From the IMG/VR virus record IMGVR_UViG_3300025308_000349, positions 1 to 28,204 of that record: a stretch of DNA of 28,204 bases; one strand, 5' to 3'. Below are positions 7,116-27,300 of the stretch, piece by piece. Position numbers and translations under genes: made by a program. The notes beneath the pieces are model-generated. The model was not told the DNA's origin. It did not search any database and saw only the letters and a list, made by a program, of their open reading frames with translations. How positions within the stretch are numbered: position 1 is the first letter of the stretch; every line of letters starts with the position of its first letter. This stretch comes from a virus.

Positions 7116-7564
7116 TCCGGCGCTCCTGCAGCGGCGTCGATGCCATTGACGCACCAGTACTGCACCGACCGCTCGGCCAGCGCGCTTTCGCTCAGATTGC
7201 CAAGCACCACGCAACCGGCGTCCATGTAGGCGTGCACGATGGTGCCATCAGCGTCCACCACAATGGCGCCGTGGCTGTAGGTGCGCCCGAAGCGCCACAC
7301 AGCCACATCACCCGGTTGCGGGCTTTGCACCTGGGTGCCGTACTGACGCAGCCAGCCCAGGAACTTCTCTTCGCTTCGGTGCAGGTGCCAGTCGTGCGGG
7401 TAGGGGCGCGGGTCCAGCGCAGGGGGCACCAGGCCAACCGCCTTGAAAACGCTGACCAGCAGCATGGCGCAGTCCACCCCCACACCCTTGACGGCCGCCT
7501 GGTGGTGGTATGGCGTCTTGAGCCAGGCGCGGGCTTCTGCCACGACTTGCGTGCGCAGCGTCAT
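7112..7564 (-). CDS. NlpC/P60 family tail tip peptidase (gpK-like)
   Basis: A 150-aa cysteine peptidase of the NlpC/P60 superfamily. Catalytic elements visible: Cys32 in VGVDCAMLL, His98 in YSHGAIVV, and a possible third polar residue near His111. The PQPGDVAVWRFG segment before the His is the standard GD-x-hydrophobic strand of the family. In siphophages this gene lies between the M/L-type tip genes and J, and the product trims peptidoglycan or takes part in tail-tip assembly. ATGA overlaps occur with both neighbours (7561-7564 and 7112-7115), so it is translated as part of a coupled tip block. Confidence 0.88.
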   Translation of the reverse strand: MTLRTQVVAEARAWLKTPYHHQAAVKGVGVDCAMLLVSVFKAVGLVPPALDPRPYPHDWHLHRSEEKFLGWLRQYGTQVQSPQPGDVAVWRFGRTYSHGAIVVDADGTIVHAYMDAGCVVLGNLSESALAERSVQYWCVNGIDAAAGAPE

Positions 7565-21800: not shown

Positions 21801-22181
21801 CTATCTGGCCGCGCGTTGTTTTTCCGCTTTCTCCACCAGCCACGCCTGGATGGCGGCGTCCGCGTCCTCCAGGTTGCGCTTGATGGTGCTCTCGGCCCGG
21901 CACATCTCTCGTGCCACCTTGTGGATCTCCAGGCTTTTGGCGTAATGGAGGGTGAGAACCAGGTACAAGTGGGAGCGTGTGAACTGCAGCGACTTGACCG
22001 CCTCGTTGGTCTCGGCCGCTTCGATGTCGTTTGTCGGCACAACCGTCTCATACCCACTCCCACGCCCGGCCAGGCGGGCCAGTGTGTTGGTGGTGGGGTA
22101 GCCCAGCGCCCCACCCTCGCACTTGGCGCACCACCGCGCCCAGTTCTCCAACCGATGGCGGATGCCTTCAATGCGCGCCAT
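21801..22181 (-). CDS. Q-like late antitermination protein
   Basis: A 126-aa protein starting MARIEGIRHRLENWARWCAK, with GGGAG 6 nt upstream of 22181. The RLENWARW-x-x-x-x-x-GG-x-LGYP pattern, an acidic middle (TNDIEAAETNEAVKSL) and a C-terminal helix-turn-helix-like part (HYAKSLEIHKVAREMCRAES then TIKRNLEDADAAIQAWL) resemble phage antiterminator Q proteins of the smaller type. Position supports this: it lies between the replication genes and the late genes. It would load on RNA polymerase at a late promoter just downstream and let it pass terminators in the 21-kb late block. Family not confirmed by search. Confidence 0.68.
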   Translation of the reverse strand: MARIEGIRHRLENWARWCAKCEGGALGYPTTNTLARLAGRGSGYETVVPTNDIEAAETNEAVKSLQFTRSHLYLVLTLHYAKSLEIHKVAREMCRAESTIKRNLEDADAAIQAWLVEKAEKQRAAR

Positions 22182-22476
22182 CTGCAGCTCCCGTTTTATC
22201 CGGCTCGGCAATGAACCCGGCAAAGCTGCACCCCAGTTTCACTGCGAGCGCCTGGTGCTCTGCGATCGGGTGAGTTGTCGGGAATGGCGTGCCAAGGATG
22301 TGGCCGCGCTCGAAGGCATAGAACCGACCGGCCTCACCCTTGAGAGCTCGCCTGATGCAGTCGTTAACGTGCTCTGCGCCGTACTCGGCGCGCTTGGCAT
22401 CAACCCACTCTGCCGTTTCGGGCATTTGGCTTCGAAGATCGAGCTTCGCTGCTGGCTGGCTGGCTGGTCTGCTCAT
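22168..22476 (-). CDS. Hypothetical phage protein
   Basis: A 102-aa protein beginning MSRPASQPAAKLDLRSQMPE; an AGGAG ribosome site 7 nt upstream decides the start at 22476 against a longer frame to 22545. The body reads TAEWVDAKRAEYGAEHVNDC, then IRRALKGEAGRFYAFERGHI and LGTPFPTTHPIAEHQALAVK. I recall similar short proteins in Burkholderiales phages but know no function. It overlaps the Q-like gene by 14 bp and follows the putative origin, so it belongs to the end of the early block. Confidence 0.6.
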   Translation of the reverse strand: MSRPASQPAAKLDLRSQMPETAEWVDAKRAEYGAEHVNDCIRRALKGEAGRFYAFERGHILGTPFPTTHPIAEHQALAVKLGCSFAGFIAEPDKTGAADGAH

Positions 22477-25603: not shown

Positions 25604-25886
25604 GCGCCACCCCCATTCCCCATCGGTCCAGGTCTGCCTGGCGTCTCGCCTCCAGATCCTGTCGTTCTTTCACTCGTTGGCCCCACTGATGGGGGTGCCA
25701 GGCCAGCCGGCATCGATTGGCCACGACCGGTGACAGGGTGAGCTGGCCGTCTGGAACCTCGCGGGCCCGGTGCACGTCCACGTGGTGGAAAAGGCACTCG
25801 CCGGGGCTTTGCTCAAGAAGCAAGGCAAAACGGCCGCTGAGCAACCGGTAGACGCCGCCGACCTCAAGCGGGCTGGCGGGCTTCAT
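25587..25886 (-). CDS. Hypothetical phage protein
   Basis: A 99-aa protein beginning MKPASPLEVGGVYRLLSGRF, predicted beta-rich at first (RFALLLEQSPGECLFHHVDV) and helical and charged later (QRVKERQDLEARRQADLDRW). Its ATG overlaps the CII-like stop (25884-25888) and its 3' end overlaps the winged-helix gene by 17 bp. No family is recognised. It is co-transcribed with the early replication genes. Confidence 0.55.
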   Translation of the reverse strand: MKPASPLEVGGVYRLLSGRFALLLEQSPGECLFHHVDVHRAREVPDGQLTLSPVVANRCRLAWHPHQWGQRVKERQDLEARRQADLDRWGMGVAHATAK

Positions 25887-26272
25887 CAGCTGACTGCCCG
25901 AATGCCGCCACGCACCTGGATATGGTCGAGCGCCTTCATCGCTCGCTCCATGGTGCTTGCAGCGTTGTTGATAACCTCCACCAGCTTGACTGCTTCGTCC
26001 TCTGGCGCCTTGCGGTCTGGCCGAGCATGCAACGTATCGTCACAGGCGTGGTACAGCGGGTCGTACCTCTCGCAATACTTCATGAGCCGGAGCACCTGGC
26101 CAAACGTCAGGCGCTGATCACCCGTCGGGCTGCAACACTCCTTGAGCCGGGCGTAGGCCGACTCCGGCTTCATGTCCGGGAAGATGTGCGCCGCCACCAG
26201 CTTGAACGGCTTGCCACTCTCGCCAATCGCCGTAGCAATGGCATCAAATTCGTCGTCGTAGAACAGCTTCAT
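25886..26272 (-). CDS. CII-like phage regulatory protein
   Basis: A 128-aa protein starting MKLFYDDEFDAIATAIGESG, with a GGAGG site 5 nt upstream. The segment KPFKLVAAHIFPDMKPESAY followed by ARLKECCSPTGDQRLTFGQV resembles phage regulatory proteins of the CII/CP76 type: an N-terminal helix-turn-helix that expects paired helices, then a C-terminal oligomerisation helix. It is the first full gene of the leftward early operon after the Cro-like gene, the same slot as lambda cII. Activation of lysogenic promoters is therefore a reasonable inference. Its start region overlaps a 34-codon leader ORF and lies downstream of a structured RNA segment, which may control its translation. Confidence 0.62.
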   Translation of the reverse strand: MKLFYDDEFDAIATAIGESGKPFKLVAAHIFPDMKPESAYARLKECCSPTGDQRLTFGQVLRLMKYCERYDPLYHACDDTLHARPDRKAPEDEAVKLVEVINNAASTMERAMKALDHIQVRGGIRAVS

Positions 26273-26348
26273 CCAAGCCTCCGTAATTTTTAGGGGTGAT
26301 TAGGGGTGACCGTTTCGGGCAAAAAAAACACACTGCAGTCATGCACAT
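26244..26348 (-). CDS. Leader peptide ORF overlapping the CII-like gene (Ash/Icd-like tail)
   Basis: A 34-codon ORF starting MCMTAVCFFCPKRSPLITPK with a GGTGGG sequence 7 nt upstream; it overlaps the first 29 bases of the CII-like gene in another frame. Small ORFs with an aromatic-Cys stretch followed by a TP-rich end are familiar in phage control regions (Ash/Icd-like peptides); this resemblance is from memory. Its ribosome site lies in a segment complementary to an upstream part of the same transcript. It may act as a translational switch for the CII-like gene. Confidence 0.4.
   Translation of the reverse strand: MCMTAVCFFCPKRSPLITPKNYGGLDEAVLRRRI
26291..26310. repeat. Tandem 10-bp repeat upstream of CII-like gene
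   Basis: TAGGGGTGAT and TAGGGGTGAC stand directly one after the other, 19 bp upstream of the CII-like start and within the leader ORF. The spacing of one helical turn suits a protein-binding site, but the repeat is also coding for the leader peptide (SPLITP) and may simply reflect that. Confidence 0.45.
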
Positions 26349-26355
26349 GAAAAAG

Positions 26356-26460
26356 CCCACCCGCCACCCCGGCACACCAATGTCCGCGCACCTTCCCGCG
26401 CGCGGCCAGAGGGAGACAAACAACCGTTCGGGCGCGCCGGACTTGATGGCGGCGGGTGGG
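26356..26460 (-). ncRNA. Candidate C4/CI-type antisense riboregulator and its target
   Basis: In the leftward transcript the block CCCACCCGCC (26460-26451) and the block CCGGCGCGCC (26440-26431) are followed 52 nt later by GGTGTGCCGG (26378-26369) and GGCGGGTGGG (26365-26356). The blocks pair in proper antiparallel order: 10 Watson-Crick pairs, and 8 plus 2 G-U pairs. A further hairpin lies between them (26384-26389 with 26400-26405). The last block covers the ribosome site of the leader ORF at 26348. Two-block complementarity between an RNA and a downstream translation start is the design of phage C4 and P4 CI RNAs. Membership of either family is inference. Confidence 0.45.
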
Positions 26461-26493: not shown

Positions 26494-26760
26494 TTAGGTG
26501 GCCGCGCTTGTTTCACCGGACCCGACCTGCCGCGTCAGTTGCTCTGCCAGCTCGGGCCAGATCTCGCCGCCATCCCGACGGCGCAGCGCCAAGCGCAGAC
26601 CAACAATCCCGGCCTCACGCTCGACACGCACGGCGTCTGCCGGCTTCATGTCCTTTCGGCCAGACAGGCACTGGTACAGGTATGCAGCATTGACCCCCGT
26701 CTTTTCGACGATGACGCTGCGCTCTTCAGCACTGAATTCGGTCTTCATGTTCGCCATCAT
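26494..26760 (-). CDS. Cro/YdaS-like regulator
   Basis: An 88-aa DNA-binding protein with a helix-turn-helix of the YdaS/Cro type: EKTGVNAAYLYQCLSGRKDM followed by KPADAVRVEREAGI. The C-terminal third (RRDGGEIWPELAEQLTRQVG) is polar. It is the first gene of the leftward lytic operon, directly downstream of the three-operator region and opposite the CI-like gene, the arrangement of lambda cro. It probably represses the repressor promoter. Starts at 26760, 26757 and 26748 are possible; none has a good Shine-Dalgarno, and the first overlaps an operator. Confidence 0.75.
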   Translation of the reverse strand: MMANMKTEFSAEERSVIVEKTGVNAAYLYQCLSGRKDMKPADAVRVEREAGIVGLRLALRRRDGGEIWPELAEQLTRQVGSGETSAAT

Positions 26761-26829: not shown

Positions 26830-27300
26830 ATGGAAACAAAAGACGAGCGTCGACGCAGGAAACTCCAGCTACTTGTCGCTGGAGTTACAGGTGGTCTTGA
26901 GACCATTTCCGTGCGCTCAGAAACTAGCCCGCAGTACCTTCAGCAGATCATTAAAGGCGTATTGCTTCCGCCAAAGAAAGATGGCACCCGCAGCCCACGC
27001 AGCTTGGGCGATGCTGCGGCCGAGGCTATCGAAGACGCCTTTGATCTGGGACGCGGCTGGTTCGACTCAGACCGCCCGCTCCCTACCGTCGAGCCACCAA
27101 AGATCGCAGAACGCGCGCCCAGACCATACCCCAGCAAAGACTGGCCCTTTACAGAGTTCACCCAAGAGGAATATGCCCTGCTGGATACTCAGCAAAAGGG
27201 CCTTGTCGAGAGCATGATCGTTCAATTCATCAAGACCCGCGAACCCCCAGCAAAACATCAGCCGCCCGCGAACAACACCACCAAGGCCGGAGCAGCTTGA
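26830..27300 (+). CDS. CI-like phage repressor lacking an S24 peptidase domain
   Basis: A 156-aa protein divergent from the Cro-like gene. The N-terminal basic stretch ETKDERRRRKLQLLV is followed by a helix-turn-helix (ETISVRSETSPQYLQQIIKG) and the block SPRSLGDAAAEAIEDAFDLG with RGWFD, known from repressor DNA-binding domains in Burkholderiales phages. The C-terminal part (EEYALLDTQQKGLVESMIVQ) could be a dimerisation helix, followed by a Pro/Ala tail. There is no LexA/S24 self-cleavage domain, so induction cannot be by RecA-stimulated autocleavage of this protein. It should maintain lysogeny by binding the 13-bp operators on both sides. The start has no clear ribosome site. Confidence 0.75.
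   Translation: METKDERRRRKLQLLVAGVTGGLETISVRSETSPQYLQQIIKGVLLPPKKDGTRSPRSLGDAAAEAIEDAFDLGRGWFDSDRPLPTVEPPKIAERAPRPYPSKDWPFTEFTQEEYALLDTQQKGLVESMIVQFIKTREPPAKHQPPANNTTKAGAA

Follow-up and report, generated by a model that had tools for sequence, protein, structure and literature searches.

A new family of structured, terminator-ended phage RNAs at the CII junction

Known RNAs of phage early regions and the present locus

The control of lysis and lysogeny is usually told through proteins and a few RNAs of enterobacterial phages (C4, P4 CI, OOP and sar). Phage P4 has a CI RNA, which undergoes processing and base-pairs with complementary sites of the transcript that it comes from, and phage lambda has a terminator, tR1, between cro and cII. 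The C4 RNA of phages P1 and P7 (Rfam RF01695) measures 77 nt in phage P1, where it has a UUCG hairpin, an a' loop and a single-stranded b' segment. OOP of lambda is a small phage RNA tied to cII, to which it is antisense (PMC12197685). In betaproteobacteria, certain sRNAs (double-hairpin RNAs, NmsR) place CU-rich unpaired stretches over ribosome sites (PMC5688073).

What is described here is a structured RNA with overwhelming covariation, found ahead of CII-type genes in phages whose hosts belong to a different bacterial family. It lies in a viral stretch of 28,204 nt (IMG/VR record IMGVR_UViG_3300025308_000349; hereafter the window), in which an earlier note, made from the sequence, had placed a candidate antisense riboregulator with the logic of C4 and P4 CI between a Cro-like and a CII-like gene. 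There is indeed a real structured RNA at this junction, and a regulatory role for it is probable; it represents a new phage RNA family with a terminator-like end, and it is not C4.

The likeness to C4 is one of outline: both are phage RNAs of a control region with a long closing stem and two inner hairpins, and both contain an anti-ribosome-site segment. The element ends in a U-run of its own, whereas C4, an RNA characterised by release from a longer transcript by RNase P, has no terminator end in phage P1; C4 targets its own transcript, whereas the loop of the element has no preference for the cognate CII start, and no a' or b' segment was found that would match a translation start further along the transcript. 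The Rfam C4 model, named as a check in the earlier note, gave no match in the window (E ≤ 10) or in its relatives, and found C4 of phage P1, the positive control, at 68.8 bits; the new family model in turn had no match in the phage P1 sequence. With P4 CI the element shares the character of an early-operon leader RNA linked to premature termination, but no cognate pairing with the CII leader was found. Its position is that of lambda tR1 (promoter, cro, terminator, CII-type gene, replication genes), from which it differs by its large size, its covarying three-way junction and its conserved C-rich loop; no nut site was identified. Unlike OOP, it lies on the strand of the CII-type gene and upstream of it.

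Rfam 15 gave no significant match in the window and holds no family that fits the element; the RNA family is uncatalogued there. The nearest entry is the anti-hemB sRNA of Burkholderia (RF02837), matched by a single family member, L052 (loci are given by such handles), at 30.1 bits (E 0.003–0.004), below the gathering threshold of 49.5 bits. The two RNAs share a hairpin with a CCUCCCUG loop (a CCUCCC-type loop in both), a second hairpin and a U-tail, and anti-hemB differs in having no enclosing stem and a different location. RF02278 (the ncS27 group) and NmsR resemble the element in that they, too, have unpaired CU-rich stretches able to pair with ribosome sites; they differ in that they are chromosomal and consist of two simple hairpins, and no Rfam match connects them with it.

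Structure and covariation of the RNA

The two pairs of 10-nt blocks reported in the earlier note are complementary on the minus strand: positions 26460–26451 (CCCACCCGCC) pair perfectly with 26365–26356 (GGCGGGTGGG), and 26440–26431 (CCGGCGCGCC) pair with 26378–26369 (GGTGTGCCGG), two G-U pairs included. They had been read as an antisense segment and its target, but in fact they are nested arms of one hairpin, the second pair lying inside the first, which makes a single long closing stem (P1 + P2) interrupted by a 7-nt bulge (26447–26441). Extended inward, P1 has 13 pairs (26460–26448 with 26368–26356), and the segment 26365–26356, which had been taken for a ribosome site, is part of its 3' arm and not a conserved ribosome site. 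The third short hairpin that had been placed between the blocks is present (26405–26384). The closing stem encloses an RNA of ~115 nt with inner hairpins, and the six bases directly 3' of P1 are CUUUUU. The parts of the element are as follows.

26350–26460, minus strand: whole structured RNA (closing stem, inner hairpins, U-run); R1 model match, fold z, covariation over 36 distinct copies
26448–26460, minus strand: 5' arm of P1, partner 26356–26368; fold and covariation
26441–26447, minus strand: 7-nt bulge AUCAAGU between P1 and P2; alignment of members
26431–26440, minus strand: 5' arm of P2, partner 26369–26378; covariation
26406–26430, minus strand: junction/P3 loop region, with CUCCC at 26415–26411; loop conservation, P3 covariation where the stem is present
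26384–26405, minus strand: P4 hairpin, loop GGGAAG at 26397–26392; covariation and loop conservation
26369–26378, minus strand: 3' arm of P2; fold and covariation
26356–26368, minus strand: 3' arm of P1 (supposed ribosome site of the earlier note); fold and covariation
26350–26354, minus strand: U-run directly 3' of P1, terminator-like end; T-rich run common to members

When both strands of the 28-kb window are scanned, the nested double stem is found a single time, and none of 300 dinucleotide-shuffled versions of the 600 nt around it contains one. The 112-nt element has a predicted fold of -68.4 kcal/mol (z -4.15), and the R1 covariance model places it on the minus strand, with 93.9 bits (match at 26352–26458) vs 14.3 on the opposite strand. 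Folding together with covariation across homologues, a check that the earlier note had proposed, came out in favour of a structured RNA.

Copies were collected with the covariance model and DNA patterns in viral contigs and by genome searches. The collection comprises 39 copies, of which 36 are distinct; they lie in phages and prophages, and the host genomes are of the Comamonadaceae type. The mean pairwise DNA identity between members is 62%. A first alignment was made by sequence alone, with a hand-drawn structure (P1 of 11 bp, bulge, P2 of 10 bp, P3, P4); in this unfitted alignment, 19 of the 36 pairs are changed on both sides, and the double-change cells number 54, where shuffles give 16.4 and slid partners no more than 10. 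In the full set of 36 distinct copies, 92.4% of the cells pair and double changes occur at 33/36 pairs, amounting to 187 double-change cells vs 51.4 in shuffled alignments and at most 42 with partners slid; this second alignment was fitted to the model and leans towards it, which the first, 19-pair alignment does not. On this comparative evidence, compensatory changes at 33 pairs and 187 cells where shuffles give 51, the RNA structure of the family can be regarded as essentially proven.

The changes are spread over the stems: P1 (97.7% of cells paired) has double changes at 9 of its 11 modelled pairs, P2 at 10/10 and P4 at 10/11. The P3 stem covaries wherever it is present; in the window, L007 and L227 it is degenerate. 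The bulge between P1 and P2 is AUCAANN-like in members near the window and variable elsewhere.

The loops are conserved as well. The motif CUCC lies in the junction/P3 loop of 35/35 non-redundant members vs 11.4 in shuffled segments, and CUCCC in 27/35 vs 4.3; this is a CU-rich stretch, unpaired in the RNA, that could pair with ribosome sites. In 33/35 members the loop of P4 reads GGGAAG, GGGCAG or AGGCAA (pattern [GA]GG[AC]A[GA]). A kissing interaction between P3 and P4 (UCCC/GGGA), considered by inspection, was rejected, as it fails wherever the P4 loop reads AGGCAA. A possible resemblance of P4 to lambda boxB was considered as well.

Across members, P1 is followed by a T-rich run, and the element has the form of an intrinsic terminator, namely a G+C-rich hairpin with a U-run directly after it, between cro or the promoter and cII. 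A simple terminator scan, restricted to short loops, did not flag it, because its loop is far longer than the scan permits. Just after the U-run, most members have a CATGNNNGCAGTGT-like box, whichever type of regulator follows; in several CP76-type loci (e.g., L188, L181) this box folds into a small hairpin whose loop is of the AGUGU type.

The known spread of the family is a lower bound, since few candidates were scored per genome in the genome searches: an order-level search, with 9 candidates scored per genome, gave no members outside the genomes already found, which is weak evidence of absence. BLAST against isolated phages and plasmids gave no relative, only one chance-level match (E 0.8).

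Genomic context of the copies

In the window, the element is surrounded by the following features.

26494–26760, minus strand: small Cro-like gene just upstream; open reading frame, Cro-like by position and look
25886–26272, minus strand: CII-like gene, 128 aa, phrog_24214 (function unknown); CII-like by place and analogy
26273–26349, minus strand: leader of the CII-like gene; shared by nearly every homologue of the gene, whether or not the RNA is there
26328–26321, 26308–26300, 26298–26290 and 26282–26278, minus strand: parts of this leader, respectively T8, two CACCCCTAA repeats and the Shine-Dalgarno sequence GGAGG
26830–27300, plus strand: divergent repressor-like gene, phrog_5736 transcriptional regulator; phrog match

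Family searches with the small Cro-like gene gave no match. The window protein is called CII-like by analogy, because of its position, because Phage_CP76 genes occupy the corresponding place behind other copies of the RNA, and because of a weak match to a phrog of unknown function; a fold search with its model (pLDDT 75) returned nothing significant, the phage 186 regulator recurring among the weak matches.

With the CII-like protein as query, 45 loci were found in contigs of bacteria and viruses, few of which have a recognisable copy of the element immediately upstream of the gene (6/45, plus the window); the RNA is therefore accessory to the window-type CII gene. The earlier note had held that the proposal would fall if homologues kept the protein genes and lost the pairing without compensating changes, and the outcome is divided: most CII homologues are without the element, and the copies that exist keep their pairing by compensating changes.

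The element usually lies 64–83 nt upstream of the start of a CII-type regulator, and the regulators behind it belong to several protein families, assigned by tests on representatives and, for the remainder, by evident similarity. A Phage_CP76/phrog_101 CII follows the RNA in L087, L061, L227, L092 and others, the window-type phrog_24214 regulator also in L089, and other small helix-turn-helix proteins in L052 and L172; in L130 the gene behind the RNA is unclassified, and in L090 no CII-type gene was recognised there. The RNA is thus kept while the regulator protein differs. It is also present or absent as a unit: L043 and L033 have near-identical flanks, and L043 is without almost exactly the segment from P1 to the U-run.

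Two arrangements are found upstream. In the window (frame ending at 26494, element from 26460) and in L188, a Cro-like gene lies just upstream, while in 14 copies a divergent gene starts 69–78 nt before the element, leaving a divergent promoter region of ~72 bp. With the divergent start so close, the promoter should lie in this gap and the RNA should be promoter-proximal. The compact region of fixed length, with the opposite-strand start 69–78 nt before the RNA, is seen in L033, L051, L032, L048, L062, L029, L052, L227, L021, L087, L141, L172 and L159; it often has mirrored GAGNNCCCC...GGGGNNCTC ends. In L032 (1650–3405), a block of promoter, RNA and leader stands in tandem, 310 nt at 91.6% identity; the first copy runs into a short broken CII frame whose tail resembles a Cro-like C-terminus, and the whole looks like a recombination scar.

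The leader of the CII-like gene has features of its own. In most of the homologues L001–L045, the distance between a T7–8 run and the start codon is a near-constant 45–51 nt. Behind the run come two CACCCCTAA-like repeats, spaced 10 bp apart, and then a TTANGG-type element, which overlaps the Shine-Dalgarno sequence and can pair with the second repeat. The hairpin before the T-run is strong in about ten homologues and absent from others. A conserved leader peptide of 34 codons (26348–26244), which the earlier note had taken as the target, was discarded as a candidate: its frame, its length and even its ATG vary across homologues, some relatives alone have the frame open, L029 has an indel that closes it, and many homologues are missing the ATG or the frame.

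Possible functions of the element

The reading that we favour, while granting it slightly less than an even chance, is that the element is a terminator at the tR1 position that also releases a small RNA, whose anti-Shine-Dalgarno CUCC(C) loop acts in trans. The family would belong to the early (CII-type) operon of temperate phages. Transcription from the early promoter would make the RNA first, or right after Cro, and the closing stem with its U-run would end a share of the transcripts, so that less of the CII-type regulator and of the replication genes downstream would be expressed. The terminated product would be a small RNA of roughly 115–150 nt when promoter-proximal, and its loop could cover the ribosome-binding sites of other mRNAs. 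Termination in vivo, release of the small RNA and its pairing with ribosome sites are what we infer; for the small RNA, the conserved loop and the CU-rich sRNAs of betaproteobacteria (PMC5688073) point in this direction, and the weak anti-hemB match lends support in kind, not in homology.

Covariation, the U-run, CUCC in all 35 members, the fixed place, the clean absence in L043 and the 69–78-nt gap in 14 copies count for this reading. The absence of a target in the searches below, the negative terminator scan and the degenerate P3 of the window count against it. A fuller version, which we consider somewhat unlikely, would give the module two jobs, the stem terminating before the CII-type gene and the released anti-Shine-Dalgarno RNA acting on phage or host mRNAs, and would have it swapped between phages with unrelated CII-type proteins. 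If this were true, each termination event would withhold the CII-type regulator and at the same time yield a translational regulator. The family now has a working covariance model, and it raises the question whether early phage terminators double as regulatory RNAs.

In 28 loci, pairing of the loop with the cognate CII start was no stronger than with the CII starts of other phages (means of -12.5 vs -13.3 kcal/mol; p 0.94), and the cognate-pairing test with the whole leader, in the same number of loci, gave p 0.84. The loop showed no significant preference for the start of the divergent gene (p 0.056), and against all open-reading-frame starts in 12 loci its matches were strong ribosome sites of a generic kind. 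Both a gene that starts at position 22181 of the window and a relative in L172 came up in this last scan; they were considered as a target and found not convincing. Window positions 21801–22223 (minus strand) encode a small protein with the look, by eye only, of a late antiterminator, and its ribosome site ACGGGAG is among the better complements of the loop in the window, with no statistical support.

The main rival, because of the shared position with lambda tR1, is a conditional terminator or attenuator that acts only in cis, the inner hairpins serving folding, pausing or stability and no RNA acting in trans. The position, the U-run, the long and stable closing stem and the lack of a found target all agree with it, but a terminator of this kind needs neither a CUCC loop in 35/35 members nor a conserved P4 loop nor a covarying three-way junction, and we judge it rather unlikely. 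The conserved P4 loop also leaves room for a bound protein. The element would then be a site for antitermination (nut- or put-like) or for a regulator, with P4 or the junction recognised and read-through into the CII operon decided there. The P4 loop pattern in 33/35 members, on a covarying stem, fits such a role; no candidate protein was found, however, no boxA-like motif is seen by eye and the CUCC loop is left unexplained, so that this alternative appears improbable.

The view of the earlier note, an antisense RNA directed at the transcript to which it belongs, is largely refuted and in our estimate very improbable. The closing stem with two inner hairpins has the outline of C4, and the setting is the immunity or early region of a temperate phage; against this stand the lack of a C4 match with a working positive control and the terminator-like end that the element has of its own, and self-repression in the manner of C4 or P4 CI is unsupported because the 34-codon frame is unconserved and the loop shows no covariation with the CII ribosome site. 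Hardly credible, too, is a recombination linker in which the conserved block provides homology for module exchange and the RNA structure is incidental: the RNA does precede regulators of different families, and in L032 the ~310-nt block occurs twice with one copy entering a broken CII frame, but base pairs kept at a mean DNA identity of 62% indicate selection on structure.

The phage contig of L048, which carries a copy of the element, also has a strong match of 167 bits to the Rfam RT-15 RNA at positions 7220–7411 (plus strand); RT-15 is the RNA of a reverse-transcriptase system.
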